A DNA stretch of 64,000 bases from a bacterium (GTDB taxonomy: Bacteria > Lernaellota > Lernaellaia > JACKCT01). The first letter of the stretch is position 1. Each line of letters opens with the position of its first letter. The notes below the pieces were generated by a model. The model searched no databases. It was not told the origin of the DNA and saw nothing but the letters and a program-made list of their open reading frames with translations. This document shows, one piece after another, positions 4,823-63,539 of this stretch. The stretch lies in contig JAIOHV010000169.1 of the NCBI GenBank assembly GCA_019912885.1, positions 1 to 64,000 on the forward strand. The letters run 5' to 3'. Both the position numbers and the translations under genes were made by a program.

Positions 4823-4934
4823 GCGCGCATCATAGCCGGAAAGCGACGTGGGGCGAGACGGGCTCGACCGGGCCGTCGCGACTTTTGACGCGCCGCGCGC
4901 GGGCGACTATCTTGCGCGCGCGGAGGATTCTGAT

Positions 4935-5747
4935 TTGCGTATGACGATTCTTGCTCTGGTCGGCGCCGCGGCCTTCGCGTTCGCGGTGGGTTGCGGCAAA
5001 AAGGACACCCCACCCGCCGCGCCGTCCCCGGACGCCTCGCCGGCGAAAACGCCGTCGGCCGTGAAATACACGCTGAAAAAAGCGCCCGCCGCGCCGTACA
5101 CGGTTGAAGACGCGGACGAGAAGGAAATCTCCTTGGCCTCGGATCTGCCTCAGGAGCTGACGATCGGGCATGACGCGTCCGAAAGGATGCTGCTCGAATA
5201 TCAGGTGAAGCTCGCGGAGTGCGAGGAGCAGCTCGAGAAAAAGGACGACATGTGCCAGGCGCGCCAGGCGACGCTTTATATGTTGCTCGTGGGCGACCGC
5301 TACGCGGAGCAAGGCAAATACGACGACGCGCTCGCGTTTTATCTCAAGGCGGTCAAGCGCACGCTGTCGGAAAACGAGAAGCTCGCCGCGGAGTACGAAG
5401 CGCGCAAAGGCGAGCCCACGCCCGCGGGCCAGTCCGACACCGGCAAGGCCATGCACGGCGCCTATTTCGGCGCGCGCTATCATTTCCAGTCTTACAAGGA
5501 CTACGCGGAGATCGCGCGTTATCAGAAGCGCATCGTCGGCATCATGGCCGCGGCGGGAAATCCGAACGTGGAGGATCAGTGGCCCTTCGTGCGCGAGTCG
5601 ATCCGCGCATCCGCGGAACACAAACGCGCGTTTCTCGATCACTGGAACACGCTGAAGTCGATCAACGAAAAGATCCCCGACGCGTACCGCGAATTTTACG
5701 AAGAGGTCGCGCGCCTTGCGGATTCGATGAAGATCGAGGCGATCTAG
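4935..5747 (+). CDS. Lipoprotein with a TPR-like segment
   Basis: About 270 residues, beginning with a short hydrophobic signal and a lipobox-like FAVGC, then a Pro/Ala-rich spacer. A helical body follows, with one segment (YMLLVGDRYAEQGKYDDALAF) that fits a TPR helix pair. The signal peptide fixes the start near 4935-4941: a GGAGG at 4922 sits 8 bases before a TTG at 4935 and 14 bases before an ATG at 4941, so TTG is preferred. The longer reading frame from 4848 would bury the signal peptide. It is predicted to be anchored to a membrane. I do not recognise a specific family. Confidence 0.65.
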   Translation: MRMTILALVGAAAFAFAVGCGKKDTPPAAPSPDASPAKTPSAVKYTLKKAPAAPYTVEDADEKEISLASDLPQELTIGHDASERMLLEYQVKLAECEEQLEKKDDMCQARQATLYMLLVGDRYAEQGKYDDALAFYLKAVKRTLSENEKLAAEYEARKGEPTPAGQSDTGKAMHGAYFGARYHFQSYKDYAEIARYQKRIVGIMAAAGNPNVEDQWPFVRESIRASAEHKRAFLDHWNTLKSINEKIPDAYREFYEEVARLADSMKIEAI

Positions 5748-5748
5748 C

Positions 5749-5945
5749 GAGGATTGAGGATCGAGGATTGAGGATTGAGAGGTACGCGCCGGCGAATTGA
5801 GAAGGCTGGAATTACAGCGCGATGGACATGATGGACCGGATGGACGGCATGGACGCGTTGACGTGAACGTGTGGTGTTGCGATCGCCGTTCCGCGTTCCG
5901 CGTTCTGCATTTGCCGTGACCTTTCAGACTTTCAGACTTCCAGAC
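5749..5945. repeat. Cluster of dispersed microrepeats
   Basis: Intergenic DNA carrying tandem GAGGATTGAG units (about 5751-5780), an ATGGAC array (about 5822-5856) and TTTCAGACTTCCAGACT units (about 5921-5945). All three families recur elsewhere in the window. Confidence 0.6.
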
Positions 5946-6003
5946 TCATCGTCTTCGCCTTCCCAGCCGTCGCCGTAGCCCCTAAGATTGTCCGTTCCCG
6001 ATC

Positions 6004-7308
6004 ATGGACACTCGACCCATCGACCCGACCGCCGCGCCGCTGCCGCCTTCGTTCGCAAGGCGCGCGCCCGCGTGGCTTCTGCCCGCGCTGCTGGTCGCGG
6101 GCGCGACGCTCGGATTTGTCATCGGCGGCGTGTTCGGCGCCCGTTGGGATGACCCGTCGCTTGCCGGATTTGTCGGGCTCGTGCAGCTTTTCGGCCGCGT
6201 TTTCATGAACGTCCTCAAGTCTCTTGTCGTGCCGCTCATCGTCTGCTCGATGGTGGCGGGCGTCGCGGCCGTCGGCGATTTGCGCCGCGTGTCGGGTCTT
6301 TTCGGATTCACCTTCGGGTATTACCTCGTGACGACCGTCATGGCCGTTTCGATCGGCCTTGGCCTTGTGCTCATCATTCGCCCCGGCGTCACGGCGATGG
6401 AATCCGTCGGCGCGGCCGTCGCGCCCGACGTGGCCGGCAAGACGTGGTACGAGGCGCTCTTTTCGCTCATCGAGGGCTTGTTCCCGCCCAACCTCATTCA
6501 GGCCGCGGCCGAAACGAACGTGCTTGGCCTCATCCTCATTTCGATCGTCCTCGGCGCGCTTTTGACGACGCTCGGCGGCCGGGGGCGACGCGCGATCGAA
6601 CTTGTCGAAACGCTGAACGACGCGCTGCTCATTCTCGTGCGTTTCGTCGTTTGGTTCGCGCCGATCGGCATCATCGGCCTGGTGGCCGACCGCGTCGGGC
6701 GCGCGGGCGGCGGCGAGGCCGTGGCGACCGAGCTCATTCGGCTGTCGCGCTATTTTCTGACCGTGATGATCGGACTTGCGATCCACGCGGGCATCGTGCT
6801 ACCCGCGATCCTTCGCGTTTTTGCCGGACGGCCCGCCACGCGCCACGCGGGTCACGTGAGCGAAGCCCTTTTGATGGCCTTTTCCACCGCGTCGAGCGCG
6901 GCGACGCTGCCGGTGACGATCCGCAACGTGCGCGAGCGCGCGGGCATCTCCGAGCGGGCAAGCGGATTCGTGCTTCCGATGGGCGCCACGATCAACATGG
7001 ACGGCACCGCGCTCTATGAGGCGGTGGCGGCGATCTTCATCGCGCAGGCCTACGGTATCGAGCTGACGGTCGCGCAGGTGCTCATCGTCATGCTGACCGC
7101 GACGCTCGCGGCAATCGGCGCGGCGGCGATTCCGGAGGCCGGCCTTGTCACGATGGTTATGGTCCTCACCGCGGTCAATGTGCCGGTGGAGGGCATCGGC
7201 CTTCTGCTTTCCATCGACTGGCTCCTGGACCGCTTCCGCACGACGGTGAACGTCTGGGGCGATACTGTGGGCGCGGCCGTAGTTGAGCGCCGGCTGGCAA
7301 ATATTTGA
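6004..7308 (+). CDS. Dicarboxylate/amino acid:cation symporter (DAACS family)
   Basis: The 434-residue integral membrane protein has the SLC1/GltPh-type landmarks: a serine-rich HP1 hairpin (STASSAATLPVTIRN), the TM7 motif GATINMDGTALYE, and a late hydrophobic hairpin (HP2) followed by TM8 ending in TVNVWGDT. These motifs form the substrate and sodium or proton sites in glutamate, aspartate and C4-dicarboxylate carriers, and the length is normal for the family. It probably imports an acidic amino acid or dicarboxylate across the inner membrane. Which one cannot be told from the sequence. No sensor or enzyme partner lies beside it. Confidence 0.9.
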   Translation: MDTRPIDPTAAPLPPSFARRAPAWLLPALLVAGATLGFVIGGVFGARWDDPSLAGFVGLVQLFGRVFMNVLKSLVVPLIVCSMVAGVAAVGDLRRVSGLFGFTFGYYLVTTVMAVSIGLGLVLIIRPGVTAMESVGAAVAPDVAGKTWYEALFSLIEGLFPPNLIQAAAETNVLGLILISIVLGALLTTLGGRGRRAIELVETLNDALLILVRFVVWFAPIGIIGLVADRVGRAGGGEAVATELIRLSRYFLTVMIGLAIHAGIVLPAILRVFAGRPATRHAGHVSEALLMAFSTASSAATLPVTIRNVRERAGISERASGFVLPMGATINMDGTALYEAVAAIFIAQAYGIELTVAQVLIVMLTATLAAIGAAAIPEAGLVTMVMVLTAVNVPVEGIGLLLSIDWLLDRFRTTVNVWGDTVGAAVVERRLANI

Positions 7309-18491: not shown

Positions 18492-18845
18492 TCAGTCGGT
18501 CCAGGTGTAGGTCGTCTTTCCGTTGTTGTGCTTGGTCGTGAACGTGTAGCGCGAGCTGGAGGCGTGCGAGAACACGAACGTCACCGCGGCGTCGTCGGTC
18601 AGGTTGCGGTCGTAAACGAGCAGGTCGGCGAGGTCGGAGCTGTAGCCACCGGAGATGTCGCCGCCGTGGTCGTTGTAATAGACCTCTTCGGCCAGCTTGG
18701 CGTTACGGCCGGCGCTCTGCGCCGACGAGTCGTAGGCCTTGGCGCGAAGCTCGATGAAGTTCGGGATCGCGATGAGGGCCAGGATGCCGATGATCGCGAC
18801 GACGATCATGAGTTCGATCAGGGTAAAACCTTTGCGATTACGCAT
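18492..18845 (-). CDS. Type IV pilin-like protein (copy 1)
   Basis: The 117-residue protein has a classic class III prepilin leader, MRNRKG|FTLIELMIVVAIIG, with cleavage after G6 and Glu5 of the mature form conserved, followed by one hydrophobic helix that packs the fibre core. The C-terminal globular part is short (about 85 residues) and ends in TTYTWTD without a disulphide loop. It is a PilA or pseudopilin-type subunit, which fits with a short-pilin T4P or T2S-like system. A GAGGAG lies eight bases before the ATG at 18845; the frame extends 30 codons upstream without a leader. It is almost identical to copy 2. Confidence 0.9.
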   Translation of the reverse strand: MRNRKGFTLIELMIVVAIIGILALIAIPNFIELRAKAYDSSAQSAGRNAKLAEEVYYNDHGGDISGGYSSDLADLLVYDRNLTDDAAVTFVFSHASSSRYTFTTKHNNGKTTYTWTD

Positions 18846-19142: not shown

Positions 19143-19496
19143 TCAGTCGGTCCAGGTGTAGGTCGTCTTGCCGTTTTGGTGCTTGGTCGTGAACGTGTAG
19201 CGCGAGCTGGACGCGTGCGAGAACACGAACGTCACCGCGGCGTCGTCGGTCAGGTTGCGGTCGTAAACGAGCAGGTCGGAAAGATCGGAGCTGTAGCCAC
19301 CGGAGATGTCGCCGCCATGGTCGTTGTAGTAGACCTCTTCGGCCAGCTTGGCGTTACGGCCGGCGCTCTGCGCCGACGCGTCGTAGGCCTTGGCGCGAAG
19401 CTCGATGAAGTTCGGGATCGCGATGAGGGCCAAGATGCCGATGATCGCCACGACGATCATAAGCTCGATCAGGGTAAAACCTTTGCGATTGCGCAT
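19143..19496 (-). CDS. Type IV pilin-like protein (copy 2)
   Basis: The 117-residue near-duplicate of copy 1. It has the same MRNRKG|FTLIELM leader and the same C-terminal TTYTWTD, with only a few substitutions (for example KAYDAS for KAYDSS, SDLSDLL for SDLADLL and KHQNGK for KHNNGK). An AAGGAG lies seven bases before the ATG. Each copy has its own sigma-54-like promoter and TTCG-loop terminator, so they are separate transcription units. The duplication unit therefore runs from promoter to terminator and looks recent. Differences are in the exposed C-terminal part. Confidence 0.9.
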   Translation of the reverse strand: MRNRKGFTLIELMIVVAIIGILALIAIPNFIELRAKAYDASAQSAGRNAKLAEEVYYNDHGGDISGGYSSDLSDLLVYDRNLTDDAAVTFVFSHASSSRYTFTTKHQNGKTTYTWTD

Positions 19497-21639: not shown

Positions 21640-24345
21640 TCAATCAAACGCGATCGTCCACGAGACGCTTTTAAATTGATCGCCGTCCACCAGCGCATCG
21701 TCCTCCACGGTGAAGAACAGATCGAGGACCTTCCCGCCGGCGACGTCGGTCGTCGCGGCGGAATCGCCGGTGATGGTGACGCCGGCCGGAAGATCGAAGG
21801 CGTAATCATCGAACGAATAACCGTCGGGAATGAAAAACGCGACATGATGCTCGAACGGCGCGAACGCGGTGCCGGCGGCGGCCTCCTGCGTTCCGGTCAG
21901 CGTTTTCGCGTCGCCGTCCCAGGCGATGTCGTCGATCACCTTCACGCCGCCGAGCACGTGGCGATTCGTGCCGAGAAACTGCGGGCGATCGAGCACCGGG
22001 CGCAGCGCGACGACGCGCGGCGCGTGCGCGGGCACGAAGGCCTCGATCTCGTCCGTCACCGTTCCGAGGAATTCCTCCGTGAAGAACTCGTACGCGTGCC
22101 ACGCCGCCTTGTCGGGCACGCCGGCATCCGCGAGATCGACGGTGTATGTTCGGTCCTCGTCCGCAATCGTCCCGTATGGCCACACCGACATGTCGAGGTT
22201 TGAACCCCAGTTCAAAACGCCGATGACGTGGTAAGGCTCGGTGAAATCGTCGACCGGCAGCGACCATATCTCCGGGTATTCGCGCTCGAACAGGTCGATC
22301 GGCCGGCCGGCAACGCCGTACGGAGGAAGGATGCGACGATAACCGTCCAGCGCCTCGGGCGTCAGGTCAACCAGGCGATCGCCGATCTTCACGAGGCCGC
22401 CGCCGAGGGCGACGGAGGTCGCGAACGTCATCGACTCGTTCCATGTCAGGGGCGGAAATTGCTCCTCCTTGTGAGCGCGGAAGAAGATGAGATCGGGGTG
22501 GTTCACCCACACGCGCCCGTGCAGCCACCACGAGCGCGCCGCGTCACGGTACATCGGTTTCAGGCCCTGGTTCGTGATGAGGTCCGTCGGGCTTTCGCCC
22601 TCGAAAACAGGCATGGTGTCGAGCGTCAGCCGCACCGAATCGACGAGGCCGTAGTTCCATCCCTTGATCGCCACGTTCAGGAAAAACACGTCCGGACCGA
22701 TGACCTCGCGGATCGCCTTCACGCCCGCGCGGTAGAACTCGCCGCGCGTGTAGCTGTCGTCGTGCCAGTCGCCGCTGATGACGCCCTGGTAGGCGAAATC
22801 GAGCTTGATCCACTCGATCCCCCAATCGACGAGGTCGCCGATGACGTCTTTCAGGTGGTCGATGACCTCCGGGTTCGTCAGGTCGAGAACCGGCTCGTCG
22901 CCCGACACGATCCCGTAAAGTGGGCCGGCGAACCATTCGGGGTGATCGGCATAAACATCGGAATCGTCCGTCGCGCCGTACGCGGAAATCCATAGCCCCG
23001 TGTGGAAGCCGAGCGACTTCGCGCGGCTCATCAGCCATTCGAGGCCGTTCATGCCGCCGTGGTCGGGAAAGCGCGCCGCGTTCACGACCCAGTCGCCGTT
23101 TTCGGTGGACCAGCCGTCGTCGAGCTGAAAATAATTCATACCCCAACGACGCAGTTCGCTATCGGCGAAATCCATGTTGTCGAGGATGATCTCCTCGTCG
23201 ATGTTCGTTCCATATCCTCCCGACGATCCGCTTCCCGACCACGAGTTCCAGCCCGCGGGCACGCCGATCTCCGGGTGCTTCTCGAGCCACGTCACGATTT
23301 CGAGCCACGCCTTCAGCCGGTCGCCATAGGTTTCAAGCGCGTCGAACGGGGAGGTCTGCGTGAAATCCAGGGCGAACAACTCCGAGTAGATCGACGCGCC
23401 CGCGGCCAGCGTTTTGGCCGGCTCGTATTCGGCCGCGGCGTGGAGGGCCTGGCCGAACCCGTCGCCGAGCGGCGGGCCGGAATACACGACCGGATGCCCA
23501 ACCTCGAATGTCAGGAAGCCCGCGGACAGGCTGCGCCCGGTCGCGAGGTTGTGAATGAGCGCGCTCCACGTCGAAAGCGCGGGCGTGGTGCCGGCAAAGA
23601 TCGGCGAGATGAACTCGAGGTAGTTGAACGCGCCGTTGGTGAGAAGGCGCAGATCCTTCGGCGCGCCGAAATTCATGTGCCCATCCGGCGGATCAGCGTG
23701 CAGCGGATAGATCGCGCCGATCTGAATCTCCTCGCCGGTCGTGTTCTCGACGCGCACGTCCGAGAGCACCACGCCCTGTCCGTGGATCAACATGAATGTT
23801 TGGATAAGATCGGGCGCGCCGGCGAGGCCGCCGCGCTCGACCTTGAGCCACATGCCTCCACCGAGCGCGTTTGCCCCGTTTCCCGCGGACCAGGACAGGA
23901 ACGGCAGATCGCTGCTTCGCCAAACGGCCTTCGGGAAGATGACGCCCGTTCGCGCGAGCGCCTGCGCGTTGACGACAATCGCGTCACCATTCGCGTCGTG
24001 GATCGAGTATCGCCCGAACGGCGTGTGGTAGCGGAGAGTGACGCGATCGTTTTCGATGACGATGTCATTGCCCTCGACGCGCACGGATACCTCGCCGCCA
24101 TCGCCGGTATCGTCGTCCGCGTCGTCGTCGTCCACATCGTCGTCGGCGTCATCGTCAACGGCGTCGTCGTCCGTCTCGTCGTCATCCGCCGCGTCGTCGT
24201 CCGCCGTGTCGTCGTCATCGTCCAGGCGCGGCAACGGTCCGGTTCCATCGTCGCCGCCGGCGGTCGCCGGATCGGAGCACTCGCAGGAGATGCCAAACGC
24301 GCAGACGAAAAACAGGGCCGCGAGGATCGGGAGGATTTTTTGCAT
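21640..24345 (-). CDS. Lipoprotein alpha-galactosidase (GH36/GH27 clan) with Asp-rich tether
   Basis: The 901-residue protein begins with a signal peptide and a lipobox-like FGISC, then an Asp-rich linker of about 45 residues (DDDD with T, A, E or V spacers). A beta-sandwich domain leads to a (beta/alpha)8 barrel with VPAGWNSWSGSG, YFQLDDGW, GLWISAYGATDD and the nucleophile Asp516 in WIKLDF, as in clan GH-D alpha-galactosidases. A C-terminal beta domain closes the protein. It should act on the cell surface or in the periplasm on alpha-galactosides. No transporter or other glycosidase is adjacent. The last codons abut an AAGATTG repeat tract. Confidence 0.85.
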   Translation of the reverse strand: MQKILPILAALFFVCAFGISCECSDPATAGGDDGTGPLPRLDDDDDTADDDAADDDETDDDAVDDDADDDVDDDDADDDTGDGGEVSVRVEGNDIVIENDRVTLRYHTPFGRYSIHDANGDAIVVNAQALARTGVIFPKAVWRSSDLPFLSWSAGNGANALGGGMWLKVERGGLAGAPDLIQTFMLIHGQGVVLSDVRVENTTGEEIQIGAIYPLHADPPDGHMNFGAPKDLRLLTNGAFNYLEFISPIFAGTTPALSTWSALIHNLATGRSLSAGFLTFEVGHPVVYSGPPLGDGFGQALHAAAEYEPAKTLAAGASIYSELFALDFTQTSPFDALETYGDRLKAWLEIVTWLEKHPEIGVPAGWNSWSGSGSSGGYGTNIDEEIILDNMDFADSELRRWGMNYFQLDDGWSTENGDWVVNAARFPDHGGMNGLEWLMSRAKSLGFHTGLWISAYGATDDSDVYADHPEWFAGPLYGIVSGDEPVLDLTNPEVIDHLKDVIGDLVDWGIEWIKLDFAYQGVISGDWHDDSYTRGEFYRAGVKAIREVIGPDVFFLNVAIKGWNYGLVDSVRLTLDTMPVFEGESPTDLITNQGLKPMYRDAARSWWLHGRVWVNHPDLIFFRAHKEEQFPPLTWNESMTFATSVALGGGLVKIGDRLVDLTPEALDGYRRILPPYGVAGRPIDLFEREYPEIWSLPVDDFTEPYHVIGVLNWGSNLDMSVWPYGTIADEDRTYTVDLADAGVPDKAAWHAYEFFTEEFLGTVTDEIEAFVPAHAPRVVALRPVLDRPQFLGTNRHVLGGVKVIDDIAWDGDAKTLTGTQEAAAGTAFAPFEHHVAFFIPDGYSFDDYAFDLPAGVTITGDSAATTDVAGGKVLDLFFTVEDDALVDGDQFKSVSWTIAFD

Positions 24346-41371: not shown

Positions 41372-42904
41372 ATGACGCCGATGATGACCTGGTCCGCGAA
41401 GCGGACCCCTGCTGCGCTCCTGTTCTGTTTGATCCTGGCATTCGGTCTTGCAACCGCCGGTTGTTCGTGTTCCGACGACGGCGGCGGCGGCGACGATCAG
41501 GACACCGGCGGACTGCCGGTCCTGGATGACGACGACGACGCGGACGATGACGACACCGCCGACGACGATGTCGCGGACGACGATGACGCGGACGACGACG
41601 ATGTCGCGGACGACGATGACGCGGACGACGACGACGCGGACGACGATGACGCGGTTGATGACGACGCGGATGACGACACCGAGGTGACGCTCGAATCCAT
41701 CGAGATCGTCCCGGCATCCGGCGCGGTTCCCGAAGGCGTGACGAAGGGCTTTACCGCCATCGCGCACTACTCTGACGATTCGACGAGCGACGCGGAGGAC
41801 TTCGTGTGGGCGTCGGACGACACGGACACGTTCACGGTCGATGACGAAGGCAACGTCACCGGCGTGGCCAACGGCCAGGCCGCGCTGTCCGCGAGCCTTG
41901 GCGACATGACGGGCGAGGCGGACGTGCTGGTCGGGCCGGATGTGTTTTTCTACGACGGCGTCGCGGCGACGCTGGCCGCTTACGACCGCGGCACGGACAC
42001 CGTGGACATGGACTATCTCGCCGCGAAGGCGGCGGTCGCGGCGGTGCCGCTCGGGCTTGCGTTGTGGGAAGGCAACGCGCTCATTGTCGAGGGCGGCGAT
42101 TTCGGCCCCGGCCAGACGGGCGACGAGGGCGTTGTCGCGATCGATCTGTTCACGGGAGCGGTCGGCGCCATCGACCTTCCCGACGCGGACAATCCGAACT
42201 TCATTGCCGTTTCCGGCGACACCGCCTACGTGCCGAGCAGCCTCACCAACGAGCTCTTCGCAATTGACCTCGTGACCGGGACGATCGACGACTGGGCCCT
42301 CGCGAACGATTGCGCCCCCGGCGACGTTCTCGTGCACGACGGGCGCGTCTTCGTGGCATGCACCGGATTCGACAGTATCAATTTCACCTACGCCGATCCC
42401 GGACGCATAGCGATCGTGGATCTGTCGGACGACTCCGTGTCGTACGTCAATCTCTCGCAGGTGAACCCCGGCGCGCTGGCCGCAAATCCCGACGGCACGT
42501 CGTTGTACGTGGCTTGTACGGGCGACTATTTCTCGGAATTCGGCGCTGTGGACGAGATCGACCTGGCCACCGATGCCGTCGTGGATACGGTGGACCTGAC
42601 CGGCACGGCGCTGACCAGCCTCGCGATGACGCCGGCCGGCCTCGCGTTCCTTGGCGATTCGTTCGCCGGGAACGTTTACGTGCTCGACACGTCGGACAAT
42701 TCGCTCACGAAGGACACGGGCGATCCCATCGTCGTCGCGGACGCGTTCTGGATCGCCGAGGTCGCATACAATCCGTTCGGCAACACGGTATACGTCGCGG
42801 ACTGGACGAACCAACAGATCGCCGTTTTCGACGCGGCCACGTTCGCGGAGGGGACGGCGCTTGCCGCGACGAATCCGTCGGGCTTCGCGTTCTGGAATTG
42901 GTGA
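41372..42904 (+). CDS. Asp-tethered surface lipoprotein with BIG2 and YncE/BtuG-like beta-propeller
   Basis: The 510-residue protein has a signal peptide and a lipobox-like ATAGC, an Asp-rich tether of about 52 residues, a BIG2-type Ig domain (VTLESIEIVPASGAVPEGVTKGFTAIAHYSDDSTSDAEDFVWASDD...ALSASLGD) and a YVTN/YncE-type propeller (NALIVEGGDFG..., DTAYVPSSLTNELFAIDLVTG, TSLYVACTGDYF, NTVYVADWTNQQIAVFDAATF). BtuG of Bacteroides, a surface cobalamin-binding lipoprotein, has this propeller fold. Control by a cobalamin riboswitch supports the same role here. A GGAGG lies six bases before the ATG. No btuB is in the window. Confidence 0.8.
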   Translation: MTPMMTWSAKRTPAALLFCLILAFGLATAGCSCSDDGGGGDDQDTGGLPVLDDDDDADDDDTADDDVADDDDADDDDVADDDDADDDDADDDDAVDDDADDDTEVTLESIEIVPASGAVPEGVTKGFTAIAHYSDDSTSDAEDFVWASDDTDTFTVDDEGNVTGVANGQAALSASLGDMTGEADVLVGPDVFFYDGVAATLAAYDRGTDTVDMDYLAAKAAVAAVPLGLALWEGNALIVEGGDFGPGQTGDEGVVAIDLFTGAVGAIDLPDADNPNFIAVSGDTAYVPSSLTNELFAIDLVTGTIDDWALANDCAPGDVLVHDGRVFVACTGFDSINFTYADPGRIAIVDLSDDSVSYVNLSQVNPGALAANPDGTSLYVACTGDYFSEFGAVDEIDLATDAVVDTVDLTGTALTSLAMTPAGLAFLGDSFAGNVYVLDTSDNSLTKDTGDPIVVADAFWIAEVAYNPFGNTVYVADWTNQQIAVFDAATFAEGTALAATNPSGFAFWNW

Positions 42905-42950
42905 TGGCGTCCTCGAGGTCGAGGATCGACGATCGAGATTTGAGGATCGA

Positions 42951-42968
42951 GGGCGGCGCACGCCGCCC
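42951..42968 (+). terminator. GC-rich hairpin between the two riboswitch-controlled genes
   Basis: GGGCGGCG and CGCCGCCC arms separated by two bases and followed by CTTT. It may attenuate expression of the second lipoprotein. A GAGGATCGAGG repeat precedes it. Confidence 0.35.
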
Positions 42969-43029
42969 CTTTCGCCGTCGCGAAACCCGCTCCCTTACGG
43001 TCGCGGTTCGTCATTCCGGGCTGGCCGGG

Positions 43030-43947
43030 ATGTTCCTTATTGCTCTCGCGGTCTCGTTTTTCCTCGCGCCGCTGGCCTGCGGCGACGTGGGTGGCGGCGA
43101 CGGCGATGACGATGACGACGACGATGTCCCGGGGGATGATGACGATTTCGCCAATGGAGATGACGACGATTCCGGCGACGACGACACCGACGACGATGAC
43201 GATGCCGGGGACGACGACGACGCGGACGGCGATGACGACGACAAACCCGATCCGCCCGAGACGCGATATTTCGCCGCGGACGTGATCGACTACGAGATCG
43301 GCGTATCCGGCGGGTTCGGCGAGGATTACCTGCCGGGCAATGTTCTCGGTGCGCCGGTGGGTTTCGGCCCCGGACAAGGCAACAACGACGAGCGGGACGT
43401 CTTTTCGCTCGGTCACGGCGGCTGGATCGTACTCGAGATGAAGGTCGATATCGCCGACGGAGACGGCCCTGACTTTGTCGTTTTCGAAAATCCGTTCAAC
43501 ATCGGTGATACGGGACTGCGTTTCATCGAGACGGCGTTTGTCGAGGTGAGCGCCGACGGCGTCGACTTCGTGCGCATGCCGAACGACTACGATCCCACGG
43601 ACGTTTCGCCGCAGGCCGATCCCGCGAGTTTTTCGGGATTCGCGGGCGTGACGACGGTATCGGCGAATCTCGATCCCGATGGCGACGGCGAAACGGACGA
43701 CTGGATCGATCCCGCCGACCTCACCGTATCCGGAGGCGACGCGTTCGATCTGGCCGACGCGGGGCTCGCGAGCGCGCGTTACGTTCGGATCATCGACACG
43801 GGCAGTATCGCCCGCGCGCCGGGTACGGAGTCGTACGACGACGACGGCACGCTGATCGAGGATCAGGGGAATCTGGCGCCGTTATCCGGCGACAAGGACG
43901 GGTTTGATCTCGACGCGGTGTGCGTCATCCATGCGGTAACGCGATAA
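43030..43947 (+). CDS. Asp-tethered cell-surface lipoprotein, partner of the BtuG-like protein
   Basis: The 305-residue protein has a signal peptide (FLIALAVSFFLAPLAC) with a lipobox-like APLAC, an Asp-rich tether of about 50 residues and a globular domain with DVIDYEIGVSGGFGEDYLPGNVLGAP, SLGHGGWIVLEMKVDIADGDGPDFVVFENPF and GGDAFDLADAGLASARYVRIID. I recall this domain mostly as a 'cell surface protein' near YncE-type proteins and TonB receptors in other bacteria. The frame is open back to an ATG at 42904 that overlaps the previous stop (TGATG), but that N-terminus is coded by intergenic repeats. The ATG at 43030 gives a proper signal peptide. Confidence 0.75.
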   Translation: MFLIALAVSFFLAPLACGDVGGGDGDDDDDDDVPGDDDDFANGDDDDSGDDDTDDDDDAGDDDDADGDDDDKPDPPETRYFAADVIDYEIGVSGGFGEDYLPGNVLGAPVGFGPGQGNNDERDVFSLGHGGWIVLEMKVDIADGDGPDFVVFENPFNIGDTGLRFIETAFVEVSADGVDFVRMPNDYDPTDVSPQADPASFSGFAGVTTVSANLDPDGDGETDDWIDPADLTVSGGDAFDLADAGLASARYVRIIDTGSIARAPGTESYDDDGTLIEDQGNLAPLSGDKDGFDLDAVCVIHAVTR

Positions 43948-55193: not shown

Positions 55194-55856
55194 CTATTCC
55201 TTGTCCTCATCCTCGTCCGTTTCCTCGTCCTCATCCTCGTCCGTTTCCTCGTCCCAATCTTCGTCGTATGGCTCTTCGTCTTCGTTTTCCTCGGCGGCGA
55301 CATCCTGCGCGACGCCGTAGCCTTCGTTCTCCGAGCGCAGCAGGTCTCGGTCGACCGCTTCGGCCTCCTCTCCGTAGGCGCGCCGGTTTGTCTCGCGGGC
55401 AATGTCGTTGAGCAGGCGATCAGCGGCCTTTTCCTCGTCGAGCGTCTGCCGCAGTAGCTCGGCGGCGCTCGTCATGCCCATCAGCTCCGCCCAGGTGTGC
55501 AGCGTGCCGTAGGTGGCGATCTCGTAGTGTTCCACCTTCTGGCCGGTGACGATGAGGCCCGCGTCGCGCACGGCGGAATCGCCCTTGTCGCGGATGATCG
55601 CGGCGCCCTCTTCCTTGAGCCCCTCGATCGCCGGGCAGGTCTTGCCGCGCGCCGAGACGCCGAGGTCCTTGAAGATACGCTCCAGGCGCTCGACCTGCCC
55701 TTCGGTCTGGCGGCGGTGCGACTCGAACGCGGTGCGAAGGCGTTCGTTGGCCGCGGCCTTGGCCATCTTCGGAAGCGTCTTCAGGATTTCTTTTTCAGCG
55801 TAGTAGATGTCCCGCACCTCGTTCAAAAACAGCTCTTTCAATGTATCGGTCGGCAT
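55194..55856 (-). CDS. DUF892/YciE-type ferritin-like protein with an acidic tail
   Basis: The 220-residue protein has the YciE-family four-helix bundle: TLKELFLNEVRDIYYAEKEILKTLPKMAKAA, ESHRRQTEGQVERLERIFKDL, GQKVEHYEIATYGTLHTWAELMG and LLRQTLDEEKAADRLLNDIA. The acidic and His residues are placed for a di-metal site. The last 45 residues are almost all Glu and Asp, coded by a repeated TCCTCGTCCTCATCC tract. This family is linked to oxidative or osmotic stress but its reaction is not settled. The start at 55856 has an AAGGAGG six bases upstream. Confidence 0.82.
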   Translation of the reverse strand: MPTDTLKELFLNEVRDIYYAEKEILKTLPKMAKAAANERLRTAFESHRRQTEGQVERLERIFKDLGVSARGKTCPAIEGLKEEGAAIIRDKGDSAVRDAGLIVTGQKVEHYEIATYGTLHTWAELMGMTSAAELLRQTLDEEKAADRLLNDIARETNRRAYGEEAEAVDRDLLRSENEGYGVAQDVAAEENEDEEPYDEDWDEETDEDEDEETDEDEDKE

Positions 55857-56077: not shown

Positions 56078-56926
56078 ATGGACAGCATCGATCTGAAGCA
56101 ACGCGAGCTTTCGAACTGGACGAGCGTCGCGCCCGGGTGGGAAAAATGGGACGAGCTTCTGATGCGAAGCGCGGCGCCCGTCGCGGCGCGCCTTGTCACC
56201 CTGGCGGGGATCGGCCCGAAGCACCGCGTGCTGGATATCGCATCCGGCACGGGCGAACCGGCGCTTACCATCGCGGCGCACGTGGGACCGAACGGCTCGG
56301 TGCTGGCGACGGATTTCGTCGAACCGATGCTCGCGTACGCGCGCGAGAAGGCGCGGCGTCGCGGCCTTGCGAACGTCGTGTTCGATTGCCTGGACGGCGA
56401 GGCGCTGTCGGTGCCGCCGGAGAGCTTCGACGCGGTGACGATCCGCTGGGGCCTCATGTTCATGCCCGATCCGGTCGCGTGCCTTTCGCATTGCCGCGAG
56501 GCGCTCAAGCCCGGCGGACGCATCGCGGTCGCGTGTTGGGCGGAGCCGGAGCGCAACGTTTGGGCCTCGACGCCGGCGATGATCATCCGCGAGCACCTCA
56601 AACTGCCCGCGCCGCCGCCGGACATGCCCGGCATTTTCGCGTTCGGCGACGGGCGGCGGCTTGCGTCGGTTCTCGAAAAGGCGGGATTCACGGACGTGGA
56701 GATCGCCGAACAGCCGGTGCAATGGGGACCGTTCCTGTCCGCGCGGCAGGCGCTCGGCTTTCTTCTGGATCTGGCCGGGCCGATCGCCGCGACTCTCGCG
56801 AAAGCCCCACCGGATAAACTCGACGCGATCCACGAGGACATCGTCTTCGCGTACGAGGAATATCAGACTGACGGCGGCGTCGCGCTTCCGGGCGTGACGT
56901 GGGTGGCGTCGGCGCGGAGGGCGTAA
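56078..56926 (+). CDS. SAM-dependent methyltransferase (UbiE/Methyltransf_11-like)
   Basis: The 282-residue class I methyltransferase has motif I HRVLDIASGTGEP (about 50-62), an acidic ATDFVEPML post-I block, VVFDCLDGEALSVPPESFDAVTIRWGLMFMPDPVACLSHC and a post-III ALKPGGRIAVACWAEP strand. It is cytosolic. The C-terminal part differs from ubiquinone/menaquinone enzymes, so the substrate is open. No quinone, lipid or RNA-modifying gene is adjacent. It stands divergent from the DUF892 gene. Confidence 0.85.
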   Translation: MDSIDLKQRELSNWTSVAPGWEKWDELLMRSAAPVAARLVTLAGIGPKHRVLDIASGTGEPALTIAAHVGPNGSVLATDFVEPMLAYAREKARRRGLANVVFDCLDGEALSVPPESFDAVTIRWGLMFMPDPVACLSHCREALKPGGRIAVACWAEPERNVWASTPAMIIREHLKLPAPPPDMPGIFAFGDGRRLASVLEKAGFTDVEIAEQPVQWGPFLSARQALGFLLDLAGPIAATLAKAPPDKLDAIHEDIVFAYEEYQTDGGVALPGVTWVASARRA

Positions 56927-57127: not shown

Positions 57128-57344
57128 GGTTCGTTTCCTTGAGTCATCCACGGCGTGACCCACTGACTCAATAACACGATCCCGCGGCCGGCGAACACAC
57201 CCATTTCGCGGAGCGCGCTTATTGTATCCCGCGATGCCGCTTACGTATTTCCTTCCGCCGAATCGGGCGATTCACCTTGCGCGCGCGGCGCGCGTTCCGC
57301 TACGATGCCATGCTACCCGTGAATAAGGGGAATTGCGTCGTCTG

Positions 57345-60300
57345 ATGCCTGAAAAGTTCGATCTGCTGCTTGCGATGTGTCCGCCCTACGGGCCGGAGTC
57401 GCCGCCGCTTTCGCTGGCGAGCCTGACGGCCTCGGCGCGCGCGGCCGGTTTTTCGGTGACCGTGCGCGACTACAACATCCGGGTCTATCGCGCCGTCGAC
57501 GAAATCGAGCGCGACAACTGGAACATGGACACCAAGACGCAGTGGGTCTGGCCGTCGATGATCGCCTCGACGTGGGAGAAGTACCGCGAATCGCTCGAGG
57601 CGTGTGTGGAGGATCTCATCGCGTCCGAGGCCGACGTTTACGGCTTCTCGGTCCACTCCGACAACCGCAACATGACGCAGGAGATCATCCGCCGCCTCAA
57701 GGCGCGCAAGCCCGAAGCGTTCGTGGTGGTCGGCGGCATGGGCGTGTACGCGCAAAAGGCCGCACGCGTTTTCGAGCAGGCGCTCGTGGACGTTTTCGCG
57801 ATGGGGCCGGAGGGCGAGAACACGCTGATCGAGCTTCTGCGCGCGCGCCGCGAATCCCGGCCGGTCACCGATGTTCCGGGCGTGATGTCCGTCGGCGAAT
57901 ACACCTATTCGGAGATCACGCAGCGCAAGCCGGTGGAGCGGCTCGACGTCTTCCCCTGGCCGACGTTCGAGGACTTCGATCTTTCGCAGTACAAGACGCC
58001 GAACCTGCCCATCGTCACGTCGCGCGGGTGCAAGGCGCACTGCCTGTTCTGCAACGACCGTGTCATCATGGGCCCGCAGCGCAACCGCACGGCGGAAATC
58101 CTGTTCGAGGAGATCAAGCATCACGTCGAGGTGCTCGGCGTGCGCGACTTCTCGTTCAACGATCTTCAGATCAACTACAACATCGAGGAGATCGACCGCT
58201 TCTGTAACATGGTGCGCGAGTGGGGCGAGGAGATTCGCTGGAACGCGAACGCGATCATCTCCGAGGCGCTGCAACCCTCCATCCTCTCGAACCTGCGCTC
58301 GGCCGGATGCCACACGCTGACGCTCGGCGTGGAGTCCGGCTCCGAGGCGATGGTTAAGAAGATGGGCAAGGGCTACAAAATGGCCACCTGCCGCCGCGTG
58401 CTCAAGGACATCCGCGAAGCGGGCATCAACCTTTGGGTCAACATCGTCGTCGGCTTCCCCGGCGAAACCGACCAGACGATCGGCGAGACCATCGAGTTTC
58501 TCGCCGGCAACGCGCAGCTCATCAACGAGGTGTGCGTTTGCAATACGTGCAACCTCATCGAATACAGCATCCTGCACGACAAATTCGAAAAGTTCGGCAT
58601 CGCGACGGCGGAGGACCCCGACTGGTGGGAAGTCTCCTGGCAGACCACCGACGGCGCGAACACGTTTGAAAAACGCATGGAGTGGCTCGGGCAGATCCTC
58701 GACGTGCTGCGCCTGATGGGCACCAAGGTCCGCCAGACGAACTACTACTTCGAAAGCCCGGACGTGGCGCGCAAGAAGGAGTCCGTCGATATCGTGCTTG
58801 GCGTCGCGCCGCCGATCGACGTTTCCGCGCCGCCGTATCAACTGGCGCAAACCTCGTCGTACCTGGCCGCGCGCGGCATCGCGAACGCGGTTGTCGATCT
58901 GAACATCCACGCGTATCGAAAGGCGTCCGCGGATCAGCGCGGATTCTGGGACGCGGGCCGGCGCGACGAGTGGGCGCATCCGGACAACCTGCGCCAGCGC
59001 ATGGAAACGATCGGCCTGGACGCCGCGGCGATGGCCGACCGCCTGCTTGCCCGCAAGTCCAGGGCGATCGCGCTTTATGCCGAGCGCGGAAACAACTATC
59101 TGACGAAAATCATCCTCGAGATGATTCGCGCCAGGGACCCCGAACGCAAGACGATCCTGTTCGGCTCCGTGCCGGGGAGTTTCGTCGAGCGCAGCATCCA
59201 CGCGGACACCGTGTGCGATTACATGGTGACCGGCGAGCCGGAGGAAAGCCTTGCGGATCTGACCGCCCGCATCGTGCGCGGCGATTCGATCGATACGCTG
59301 CGCGGCGTGCGTTATCTGCAACCGGACGGGAACAAGAAGCTGATCCCGCGCGAGCCGATGAAACACCTGGATCTCATGCCCGCGCCGGATTATCGCGAGC
59401 TGCACCCGGTCGATTACGGCGGGCAATACAACATCCGCGCATCGCGCGGCTGCCGGTATCGCTGCGCGCACTGCGGCGATCAGCCGAAGGAAGGTCCCGC
59501 GCGCTATCGCCCCGCGCAGGCGGTGTTTGAGGAGATGCGCGACGCGTTCCGCCGCTTCGACGTCCGCGGATTCCGCTTTCAGGATCTCATCATCAACGGC
59601 AACCCGAAACAGTTGCGCGAGATGTGCGATTTGCTGATCGACGCGAAGATCCCGATCCACTGGCACGCGGATATCGCCCCGACCTCGGAGATGACCGCGG
59701 ACCTGTATCGCAAGATGAAGGCGGCGGGCTGCCGCGCGCTGACGTTCGGCATCGAGTCGCTTTCGGACCGCGTCTTGACGCAGCTTGGCCGCCCGTACAC
59801 CGCGCGGGTCGCGATGGAGAATCTGCGCGACGCGCACGAGGCCGGCATCGAGACGCACGTCAACATCATGGTCGGCGCGCCATGCGAAAAGCAGGAAGAC
59901 TTCTACCGCACCGCACGGCTGCTCAAGCAGGCCGAACCGCATATCGACGTGATCGACACGGTGCTGCCGGTGCGGGTGCTCTCGCGCACCGCGTTCGAAC
60001 TGTTTCCGCAAAAGTACGAGATCATGCTGCCCGACGGCGGGCACGAGCACACCTGGAGCGCGTGCGGGTTCAACAACGAAAACTGGCGCAAGACGCGCGC
60101 GATCGAGATGGCGATCTGGGTCGCCGGGCTCGACGTGGTTTTCAACTACGACTTTTTCGTGCCGCGCTACCACCCGGTGCGCCGCATGGAGGCGCGCGTC
60201 CGCCAGCGAATCCACGACAAGAGCCTCGAGACGGATATCGATGTCGTCATCGTCAACCTGCCGCCGTGGGGTTTCACCAACCCGCCGTGCGGGCCCGCGG

Positions 60301-63300
60301 TGCTGGCGTCGTATCTGGATTCGCGCGGGTTCGCGACGAAGGTCGTGGACTACAACGTCGCCTGGTACAACCGCGCACCCGAGGAATGGAAGCTCCTGTG
60401 GCACGTCGAGAACAAGAACTACTGGTCAAACGACGACACGTGGGAAGTCCTGCTCTTTGGCCTGCGCAAATACCTAGACGACGCGGTGGACGAAATTCTC
60501 GCGCACGATCCGAAGCTCGTCGGCGTTTCCGTGGTCGATCCGAAGGAGCGCTGCGCGGTCGAGCTCGTTCACATGCTCCGAAAACGCGCGCCGGAGGTCA
60601 CGATCGTGCTCGGCGGACCGGCGATGTTCACGCCCGACTACCGGACGATTTTCTTTGAGCGCGCGGGCCACGAGATCGACGGATACATCGTCGGCGAGGG
60701 CGAGGAGACGCTGCTTGACTGCGTGCGCGCGGTGAAGGACGGCCGATCGATCCGCGGCATCCCCGGCGTTATCGTGCTGAATGACGACGCGTCGCTCGAC
60801 TACACGCCGCGCGGCTCGATCGCGGACCTGGATTCGGTCCCCTTCCCCACCTACAAGCATTTCGACATGACGCAGTACCACGGCAATTCGCTCGTGCTGG
60901 AGTGGTCGCGCGGGTGCGTGGCGAAATGCGTGTATTGCAAGGGCAAGGACTTGGCGGGCACGTACCGCAGCCGCACCGCGGAGCACATCTTCGCCGAGCT
61001 GAAATACGACGTGGAGGTTCTCGGATATCGCAGTTTCACGATCTCCGACAACATCCTGAACGGCCGGCCGAAGATGCTCGACAAGCTCTGTGACATGATC
61101 ATCGAGGCGAAGTTGCCGATCCGCTGGAATGCGGAGGCCGCGCCGATGAAAAACCTGACGCCGGAATTATTGCGCAAACTGAAGGCGGCGGGCTGCTTCG
61201 AGTTGCAGCTTGGCCTCGAGGTCGGTTCGGACAACGTGCTTGCGCTCATGAACAAGGGCAAGCTGTTCACCGTCGAGAGCGCGACGAAGGTTTTCCGCGA
61301 CGCGCACGACGCGGGCATCAAGACATGCATGTTCTGCATCGTCGGTTTCCCCGGCGAGACGGAAGAGGATTTTCAAAAGACGCTGGAGATGATCGAGGCC
61401 AACGCGCCGTGGATCGACCAGATCAAGTCGATCAACGCGTGCGTCATCATCACGGGCACCGAACTGCATGTGCAGGCCGGCAAGTGGGGGATGTCGCTGC
61501 CGAAGGACGACTTCCATTACCTCTGGACGGACGGAAACGGCCTGTCGATCGACGAGCGCAAAAACCGCATCCGCCGCGTGCTCGCGCTCGTGCAGAAGCT
61601 CGGCAAGGAATGCCTGGAGACGAACCTCACCGAGGGCAAGCAGAACGAACTCGCCGCCGAATCGAAATCCGAGAACCTGCCGGTGGCCGAGCGTTTCGCG
61701 CGCTTGATCCGGCAAATCAACAATCTCGGCAGCTTCGATCCGGGCGCGTTCGGCGAAAAGGGCAAGACGATTCGCGTGCCCACGCTCGAAGAGGACTTCA
61801 AGCGCGAGAAGGACCTCGACTACGGCACCGCGGAGACTTTCCTCAACGCGAAAAGCGCGGCCGAGATCATGGCAAAGACTTACGGCACTCCTGGCGGCGA
61901 CGCGGCGTACGCCGGCGCGGGGACCGTTTCGGGAATGGGCACGGTCACGGGCAATGGCGCGAAGGCGTCTTCCGTCCATTCAGTCCATTCGGTCCATGAT
62001 GTCCATCCGGTGCATCCCGTGCATTCCAACGGCCACGCCGAACCCGCCAACGGGAACGGGCACGTCCAGGAAATCACGCCTGTCAAATTCCTCTCCCGCA
62101 ACCTGCACCTGGCGGGGATCCGGAGCCAGGAGCGTGTCTACGCCGGCCCGAAGATTCTGGAAATCGACCTGACCAACAAGTGCAATCTGCACTGCGTCGG
62201 GTGCTGGAACCACGGGTACGAGATGGGCGGCGACCGCTGGACCGGCGAGATGTTCCGGCGCACGCTCGCGACGAAAACCGTGCTGAAGGCGATCGATGAC
62301 GCCGCGCGCGCCGGCGCCGAGATGGTGCAGTTCTCCGGCGCGGGCGATCCGATGCTGCATCCGGATTTCCTGGCCATCGTCGCGCGCGTGAAAAGCCACG
62401 GCCTGCGCTGCACGGTCATCACCAACGGCACGATGCTGACGGACAAGAACGTCAAGAAGCTCGTCGAGCTTGGCCTCGACAACCTGACCGTCAGCGTCTG
62501 GGCCGGCACCGCGGACATGTACGAAAAGACGCACCCGGGAACCAAACCCAAGGTGTTCGAGGCGATCCGCGCGTCGCTCAAGAATATGCACGCGGAGAAA
62601 AAGCGGCAGAAAAGATTCCGCCCGCACGTGAAGATCTACAACGTCATCAATCATGTGAACGCGGGCGGCATCGACGACATGATCAGCTTCGCGCTCGACG
62701 CGCTCGTCGATCACGTGGAGTTCACGCCGGTCGATATCATCGCGGGCAAATCCGACGCGCTCGCCATCACCGCGCAGGATCGCGAATTGATCGGCACGCA
62801 GCTCGACGGCCTGACGCGCCGCGACGACTACCTGGAACTCGATCCGAACCAGACGCCGCGCTCCGCGGAGAATACCGGCGAGGGCAAGGAGTTCGCGCGG
62901 TTCGTGAAGTACGGCGCGGTGTCGTGGGATTTCAAATACGAGCTCGACGACATCCGCCGCTTTGACGTGCTGTGCGAACGCAAGAGCTGGCGCCTTGACG
63001 TCACCGAGGACAACAAGGAAGAAAACGCGCTCATCTTCCAGTACCCCGTCGAGGAGTGTACGGCCTGCCCCGTGCAGAACAAATGCAGCATCGACAAGGA
63101 ACGTTTCGTTGTTCCCGTGCCGTTCTTGTCAATCCTTGGCTTTGGCGCGTTCTACCGGCGCATCACGAGCCGCGACGCGTCGACCGGCGGATACGACGGC
63201 GAGGCGACGCGCAACCTGGCGTGCAATATCGGCTGGACGTACACGCGCATCGGCACCGACGGCGCGGTCGTCCCGTGCTGCAAGGGCTACAAGAAGCCGA

Positions 63301-63539
63301 TGGGCAACCTCAAGAGCGACGCCTTCCTCGATGTATGGACAGGCGACGCCTACCGCGAGTTCCGCGAGAAGGCGATCAACCTTCCCAAGGACGACCCCTA
63401 CTTCGCCGAGATCGCGTGCATGAAAGCGTGCGACAACCTCGGCATGATCTACCGCGCCAAAGACGCCCTCGACCGCCTGACCGACGACGAGCGCCGGCTA
63501 CTCGACGAGGCGGAAGAACACGGGTTCGGGGAGATGTGA
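57345..63539 (+). CDS. Four-module radical SAM protein: three B12-binding-type modules plus a SPASM-type module
   Basis: The protein of about 2064 residues contains four radical SAM cores in one chain. Modules 1-3 each pair an N-terminal B12-binding-like domain with a core: C229-x3-C-x2-C in RGCKAHCLFC, C703 in RGCRYRCAHC and C1190 in RGCVAKCVYC. Each also has its own FGIESLS- or LGLEVGSD-type and GFPGE- or VGAPCE-type blocks. A 65-residue linker (about 1514-1579) leads to module 4, CNLHCVGCWNHG (about 1613), with a SPASM-like C-terminal cluster region (CTACPVQNKC, CNIGWTYTRIGTDGAVVPCCKG, CMKACDNLG). The enzyme is probably cytosolic. The substrate is unknown. ATG 57345 or TTG 57333 may be the start. 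Confidence 0.88.
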   Translation: MPEKFDLLLAMCPPYGPESPPLSLASLTASARAAGFSVTVRDYNIRVYRAVDEIERDNWNMDTKTQWVWPSMIASTWEKYRESLEACVEDLIASEADVYGFSVHSDNRNMTQEIIRRLKARKPEAFVVVGGMGVYAQKAARVFEQALVDVFAMGPEGENTLIELLRARRESRPVTDVPGVMSVGEYTYSEITQRKPVERLDVFPWPTFEDFDLSQYKTPNLPIVTSRGCKAHCLFCNDRVIMGPQRNRTAEILFEEIKHHVEVLGVRDFSFNDLQINYNIEEIDRFCNMVREWGEEIRWNANAIISEALQPSILSNLRSAGCHTLTLGVESGSEAMVKKMGKGYKMATCRRVLKDIREAGINLWVNIVVGFPGETDQTIGETIEFLAGNAQLINEVCVCNTCNLIEYSILHDKFEKFGIATAEDPDWWEVSWQTTDGANTFEKRMEWLGQILDVLRLMGTKVRQTNYYFESPDVARKKESVDIVLGVAPPIDVSAPPYQLAQTSSYLAARGIANAVVDLNIHAYRKASADQRGFWDAGRRDEWAHPDNLRQRMETIGLDAAAMADRLLARKSRAIALYAERGNNYLTKIILEMIRARDPERKTILFGSVPGSFVERSIHADTVCDYMVTGEPEESLADLTARIVRGDSIDTLRGVRYLQPDGNKKLIPREPMKHLDLMPAPDYRELHPVDYGGQYNIRASRGCRYRCAHCGDQPKEGPARYRPAQAVFEEMRDAFRRFDVRGFRFQDLIINGNPKQLREMCDLLIDAKIPIHWHADIAPTSEMTADLYRKMKAAGCRALTFGIESLSDRVLTQLGRPYTARVAMENLRDAHEAGIETHVNIMVGAPCEKQEDFYRTARLLKQAEPHIDVIDTVLPVRVLSRTAFELFPQKYEIMLPDGGHEHTWSACGFNNENWRKTRAIEMAIWVAGLDVVFNYDFFVPRYHPVRRMEARVRQRIHDKSLETDIDVVIVNLPPWGFTNPPCGPAVLASYLDSRGFATKVVDYNVAWYNRAPEEWKLLWHVENKNYWSNDDTWEVLLFGLRKYLDDAVDEILAHDPKLVGVSVVDPKERCAVELVHMLRKRAPEVTIVLGGPAMFTPDYRTIFFERAGHEIDGYIVGEGEETLLDCVRAVKDGRSIRGIPGVIVLNDDASLDYTPRGSIADLDSVPFPTYKHFDMTQYHGNSLVLEWSRGCVAKCVYCKGKDLAGTYRSRTAEHIFAELKYDVEVLGYRSFTISDNILNGRPKMLDKLCDMIIEAKLPIRWNAEAAPMKNLTPELLRKLKAAGCFELQLGLEVGSDNVLALMNKGKLFTVESATKVFRDAHDAGIKTCMFCIVGFPGETEEDFQKTLEMIEANAPWIDQIKSINACVIITGTELHVQAGKWGMSLPKDDFHYLWTDGNGLSIDERKNRIRRVLALVQKLGKECLETNLTEGKQNELAAESKSENLPVAERFARLIRQINNLGSFDPGAFGEKGKTIRVPTLEEDFKREKDLDYGTAETFLNAKSAAEIMAKTYGTPGGDAAYAGAGTVSGMGTVTGNGAKASSVHSVHSVHDVHPVHPVHSNGHAEPANGNGHVQEITPVKFLSRNLHLAGIRSQERVYAGPKILEIDLTNKCNLHCVGCWNHGYEMGGDRWTGEMFRRTLATKTVLKAIDDAARAGAEMVQFSGAGDPMLHPDFLAIVARVKSHGLRCTVITNGTMLTDKNVKKLVELGLDNLTVSVWAGTADMYEKTHPGTKPKVFEAIRASLKNMHAEKKRQKRFRPHVKIYNVINHVNAGGIDDMISFALDALVDHVEFTPVDIIAGKSDALAITAQDRELIGTQLDGLTRRDDYLELDPNQTPRSAENTGEGKEFARFVKYGAVSWDFKYELDDIRRFDVLCERKSWRLDVTEDNKEENALIFQYPVEECTACPVQNKCSIDKERFVVPVPFLSILGFGAFYRRITSRDASTGGYDGEATRNLACNIGWTYTRIGTDGAVVPCCKGYKKPMGNLKSDAFLDVWTGDAYREFREKAINLPKDDPYFAEIACMKACDNLGMIYRAKDALDRLTDDERRLLDEAEEHGFGEM
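61973..62029. repeat. GTCCAT (reverse ATGGAC) repeat inside the radical SAM gene
   Basis: About nine GTCCAT- or GTGCAT-type units coding for SVHSVHSVHDVHPVHPVHS. This is the reverse complement of the intergenic ATGGAC family, here kept in frame between modules 3 and 4. A GGGCACGGTCACGG tract lies just before it. Confidence 0.75.

Follow-up and report, generated by a model that had tools for sequence, protein, structure and literature searches.

A conserved protein with four predicted radical SAM cores in Candidatus Lernaellota, and its five-core sister

The locus and the modules of the protein

The window, i.e., the whole 64,000-nucleotide stretch of DNA analysed here, holds a gene for a protein in which three B12-type radical SAM modules precede a SPASM radical SAM module. 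The features of the locus are as follows:

55194-55856, minus strand: DUF892 protein, a neighbour not conserved beside homologues
56078-56926, plus strand: UbiE-like class I methyltransferase, the upstream neighbour, not conserved beside homologues
57345-63539, plus strand: the gene as a whole (2,064 aa; three radical SAM modules of B12-type and one of SPASM-type), with orthologues in all seven phylum genomes
57351-58766, plus strand: module 1 (B12-binding and radical SAM), residues 3-474, CxxxCxxC at 58029-58052; modelled
58779-60221, plus strand: module 2 (B12-type and radical SAM), residues 479-959, CxxxCxxC at 59451-59474; profile search and model
60231-61649, plus strand: module 3 (B12-binding and radical SAM), residues 963-1435, CxxxCxxC at 60915-60938; profile search and model
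61650-62084, plus strand: low-complexity, disordered linker, residues 1436-1580; model and homologue comparison
62085-63536, plus strand: module 4 (SPASM radical SAM), residues 1581-2064, CxxxCxxC at 62181-62204; profile search and model

The stop-free frame spans 57327-63539, with start codons at 57345 (ATG) and 57333 (TTG), and the coding signal is unbroken along the whole 57345-63539 frame. A frameshift or an assembly join, an objection named in an earlier note on this DNA, was looked for and is ruled out: the protein aligns over its full length, in one frame and with 61% identity, to the orthologue of the relative G001. Since all seven phylum genomes sampled hold the gene, it is not an assembly artefact.

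The CxxxCxxC motif occurs exactly four times in the 2,064-residue protein, at residues 229, 703, 1191 and 1613; in shuffled versions of the same protein its mean count was 0.02 and its maximum one. The earlier note had assigned each motif to a core of its own, in the order of three B12-binding modules and a SPASM-type module, and Pfam searches of the modules and of the whole chain agree with both statements. Searched alone, modules 1-4 scored 76.6, 68.7, 79.0 and 67.4 bits against the radical SAM profile PF04055 (curated cut-off, 29.5 bits), and the region after the barrel of module 4 scored 44.3 bits against the SPASM profile PF13186 (cut-off, 21.5). The B12-binding profile PF02310 matched modules 1 and 3 ahead of their barrels (46.7 and 47.0 bits; cut-off, 32.1) and gave no match at E 0.01 in module 2 searched alone. 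A scan of the whole chain with this profile matched three stretches, and the B12-type region of module 2 is predicted to fold as alternating strands and helices. Module 2 may have a B12 domain too divergent for Pfam in a separate search.

The B12 domains of the modules contain no DxHxxG motif; a DxHxxG near position 350 of some modules was rejected as a B12 motif, as it is located in the radical SAM barrel. For the residue below cobalt, alignment with TokK and CysS gave no usable reading, being too weak and reaching the loop for module 1 only. The modules share 26-32% pairwise identity, and module 4 has nine cysteines besides those of CxxxCxxC that do not vary among seven homologous sequences. 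The linker that precedes module 4 consists of SVH/PVH repeats and is predicted to be disordered; among homologues it varies from 55 to 146 residues, with neither length nor sequence conserved.

AlphaFold models were made in two parts, each of less than 1,200 residues: modules 1 and 2 (mean pLDDT 86.3, pTM 0.61), and module 3 with the linker and module 4 (mean pLDDT 77.4, pTM 0.50). The models predict folded domains in each module and a disordered linker; the placing of the modules relative to one another is not established by them. The best PDB matches of the modelled B12 modules were TsrM, OxsB, AprD4, MgmA and CysS; fold matches to class 1 cobalamin-dependent enzymes were at E 1e-13 to 1e-18 and 14-20% identity. 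The second model additionally matched BlsE, SkfB, SuiB, DesII and MoaA.

Conservation, sister proteins and origin of the modules

The phylum FEN-1099 corresponds to Ca. Lernaellota or Podoxiota (PMC11382960). Matches to the window gene at E below 1e-60 were found in all seven of its genomes sampled; genes in these relatives were called from a simple coding score that had been trained on the window. An unchanged order of the four cores within a single frame, which the earlier note proposed to look for, was found in five of the seven (G000, G001, G003, G004 and G006), with 1,948-2,106 aa between stops. The G002 orthologue is split by frameshifts into pieces that lie in order in several frames. 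In G005, the orthologue has two B12 modules and the SPASM module, and according to the tree the absent one is module 1; thus, the four steps need not all go together. CxxxCxxC is kept in 58 of the 59 B12 modules compared, a retention that argues against the cores being pseudo-enzymes. We conclude that the window gene codes for a real multi-core radical SAM enzyme, conserved in the phylum and predicted to be active. The one exception among the 59, a single-core B12-type radical SAM relative in G339 (L081:8283-10223), has CxxxxCxxC in place of CxxxCxxC; a search of the G339 phylum for relatives returned nothing at E 1e-75.

Two kinds of multi-core protein are new here: a five-core sister and the three-core proteins of a second phylum. 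The five-core sister, in which a SPASM-type core is followed by four B12 modules, has 2,511 residues in the same genome as the window (contig C218:33757-41292; L023:11458-18993). Each of the seven phylum genomes has it. Six carry it as a single frame of 2,363-2,606 aa from stop to stop, and the G002 copy is split. The window's own genome has 89 radical SAM domains above the cut-off; it also encodes two-core proteins on C178 (L024:2867-5860) and C176 (L026:8298-10784), of double SPASM-type and of B12-type plus SPASM composition.

Outside the phylum, about 379 genomes were sampled with a first-look filter that scored few candidates per genome, so an absence of multi-core proteins elsewhere is not implied. 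Within this scope, the rarity claimed for multi-core chains was borne out. One genome (G383) has a chain of three B12 cores that is broken by a frameshift, and two more genomes of its phylum have three-B12 chains in one frame (1,497 and 1,557 aa). In G193, a B12-B12-SPASM chain is interrupted by gaps of N. A G193 chain (L079:2853-6959) has an intact SPASM core after about 900 residues that are partly B12-type-like, lack CxxxCxxC and have apparently decayed, so modules can decay. Among phage records, matches were weak and confined to single modules.

In the second phylum, three-core proteins occur with SPASM cores in separate, adjoining genes, and their chains end in a hydrophobic C-terminal tail. 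Homologues with modules 1-3 and module 4 always in separate genes would, according to the earlier note, have refuted its reading; modules 1-3 and SPASM cores are separate only in this other phylum, and there the genes are adjacent. In G389, of the second phylum, there is an overlap between an ABC-transporter ATPase gene and two genes for three-core proteins. The same genome encodes, beside a three-core protein, a protein of 1,505 residues that combines a B12-type core with two SPASM cores (L085:12619-17136).

The first three modules had been taken for a tandem triplication, an origin that the phylogenetic analysis rejects. A tree built from 59 B12 modules gives every module position a clade of its own among the phylum genomes, which indicates that the modules diverged before the phylum radiated. 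Constraining the B12 modules of the window-type protein to one clade lowered the log-likelihood by 146 (p-AU 4e-7), which rules out triplication inside the window gene as the sole origin. In the tree, module 3 of the window protein clusters with the second phylum's module 3 and the five-core protein's module 1. Among the three B12 modules it is also the best conserved, with 50-77% identity among orthologues; module 2 evolves fastest (35-48%). The four-core and the five-core protein have their SPASM cores at opposite chain ends, and these cores belong to different branches; therefore, the coupling of SPASM cores to B12 arrays probably arose more than once. Module 4 groups, with moderate support (80/91), with the SPASM cores near the five-core gene that are fused to a GT4 glycosyltransferase and to a carbamoyltransferase.

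These data bear on whether the fusion has a catalytic meaning. Four enzymes of one pathway may simply have been joined for dosage, localisation or electron supply, with free intermediates and no hand-over. The long, disordered and unconserved linker before module 4, the loss of module 1 from G005 and the separate adjoining genes of the second phylum are all consistent with such a joining. Nevertheless, the four-core fusion has been kept across the phylum families f1, f2 and f3, and arrays of B12 modules have been fused to SPASM cores in two orders, which suggests that the fusion means more than dosage; we regard a joining of mere convenience as rather unlikely.

Gene neighbourhoods and a proposed role

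The neighbours of the window copy are the DUF892 gene, the UbiE-like methyltransferase gene and argS. They are not conserved across the families of the phylum, and the flanks of the gene hold no small ORF or operon conserved across the phylum. No glycan gene lies beside the window copy and, in agreement with the earlier note, neither does a precursor-peptide or lipid gene. Elsewhere in the window, two tandem genes (18492-18845 and 19143-19496) encode type IV pilin-like proteins with nearly identical N-terminal sequences; two others (41372-43947 and 21640-24345) have long Asp runs (DDDDD) after a signal-like start, and similar proteins occur in relatives.

Around the orthologues, GT2 and HpnJ-like radical SAM genes are found in G004, G005 and G006, in the last of these together with Wza and Wzc; the G001 orthologue lies near a GT2/methyltransferase fusion and PMT_2, and that of G003 near PMT_2. 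The five-core gene adjoins a NodU-type carbamoyltransferase gene, or is one B12 radical SAM gene away from it, in all seven genomes. In the window's own genome it lies behind bamA, lpxD, lpxA, lpxI, lpxB, msbA and waaA, separated from this lipid A block by a GT4/SPASM fusion, two carbamoyltransferases (one of them SPASM-fused) and an epimerase. GDSL or MBOAT genes follow it in G003, G004 and G006. Of the SPASM cores at L023:11-2743 and 3338-6157, one is joined to a group 1 glycosyltransferase and the other to the N-terminal half of a carbamoyltransferase; the C-terminal half of this carbamoyltransferase is a gene of its own between the two fusions.

Because the context of the relatives consists of glycosyltransferases, Wza/Wzc and lpx/waaA genes, a surface glycan or glycolipid is the favoured substrate. 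We infer that all cores are active and that they act in order on one such substrate. Each of the four cores would have a [4Fe-4S] cluster of its own and would cleave S-adenosylmethionine independently. The cobalamin-type Rossmann domain of modules 1-3 would serve to transfer a methyl group or to carry out some other step that depends on B12. Module 4 would bring in auxiliary Fe-S clusters and use them to oxidise, couple or epimerise. A single surface glycan or glycolipid precursor would thereby undergo four radical steps that depend on AdoMet, at most three of them with cobalamin, and the intermediate might pass between the cores of one chain, by analogy with the two-core FbiC. This consecutive tailoring with hand-over from core to core is our tentative preference, to which we give a little less than an even chance.

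A membrane-lipid enzyme, modifying a hopanoid, a polyprenol or a core lipid, would account for the HpnJ-like B12 radical SAM gene adjoining the orthologue in G004-G006 and for the hydrophobic C-terminus of the second phylum's three-core chains. This HpnJ-like protein, however, scores 353 bits against an HpnJ cut-off of 577.6, and the neighbours also include glycosyltransferases, Wza and Wzc; we consider a membrane-lipid role improbable.

The glycan or glycolipid reading can be extended to a radical assembly line, in which a carrier-linked glycan intermediate would move from core to core in both the four-core and the five-core proteins. The modules would have taken fixed positions before the phylum radiated, and their order would set the pattern of surface-glycolipid modification. 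This extension is possible but doubtful. The conserved four- and five-core chains would make multi-step radical chemistry on one protein directly testable and would point to novel surface chemistry in an uncultured phylum. The fusions also indicate which separate cores of other bacteria share a pathway.

Comparison with known radical SAM families

TIGR03975 (the RiPP rSAM_ocin_1 C-methyltransferases) is the nearest named family and the top NCBIfam match of every B12 module. Modules 1-3 scored 126.3, 103.5 and 142.8 bits against it, far under the cut-off of 281.85 and with partial model coverage; the 357.6 bits of the whole chain are a sum over three modules, and membership was rejected module by module. 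The likeness raises the alternative of a RiPP maturase, whose cores would act stepwise on a ribosomally made peptide in the manner of TIGR03975-type C-methyltransferases, and peptide maturation is common among SPASM cores. Against it stand the single-module scores of 103-143 bits, the lack of a precursor or of a conserved small ORF adjoining the gene in the phylum, and the lipid A/glycan context of the five-core sister. A peptide substrate is thus disfavoured, and a RiPP maturase seems very improbable. Scores per module against PhpK, HpnJ and BchE (TIGR04479, TIGR03471 and TIGR02026) were at most 130, 102 and 95 bits, below the curated cut-offs of 600, 577.6 and 481.35, and module 4 scored 108.3 bits against TIGR04317 (W_rSAM_matur; cut-off, 380).

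Class 1 cobalamin-dependent radical SAM enzymes (TsrM, TokK and OxsB; CysS and MgmA) have a Rossmann B12 domain followed by the barrel, as do modules 1 and 3 and perhaps module 2, and the class resembles the modules in lacking DxHxxG in the B12 domain (PMC13331322). All five are single-core, unlike the window protein, in which cobalamin binding is predicted. A B12-type fold need not mean that cobalamin is bound: AprD4, a diol dehydratase among the best matches in fold, is not known to need it. Our literature search for glycan-linked B12 radical SAM enzymes found none.

Module 4 resembles the SPASM enzymes anSME, SuiB, SkfB and PqqE in passing PF13186 and in having auxiliary cysteines beyond CxxxCxxC. 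It differs from them in the arrangement of these cysteines, with C...CxxC-x5-C before a C...PCC...CxxxCD block, and in being fused after three B12 modules.

To our knowledge, radical SAM enzymes are one-core proteins, with the two-core FbiC as the clear documented exception, and our search of the literature on multi-core radical SAM proteins returned FbiC only. Families CofG and CofH are absent from the per-module match lists at E 1e-15, and FbiC, a CofG/CofH fusion, differs from the window protein in having two cores and no B12 or SPASM domain. This FO synthase uses its two radical SAM cores, and two 5'-deoxyadenosyl radicals, for one product (PMC11917521). Like the window protein, it carries more than one radical SAM core per chain, and its cores are separate genes elsewhere.
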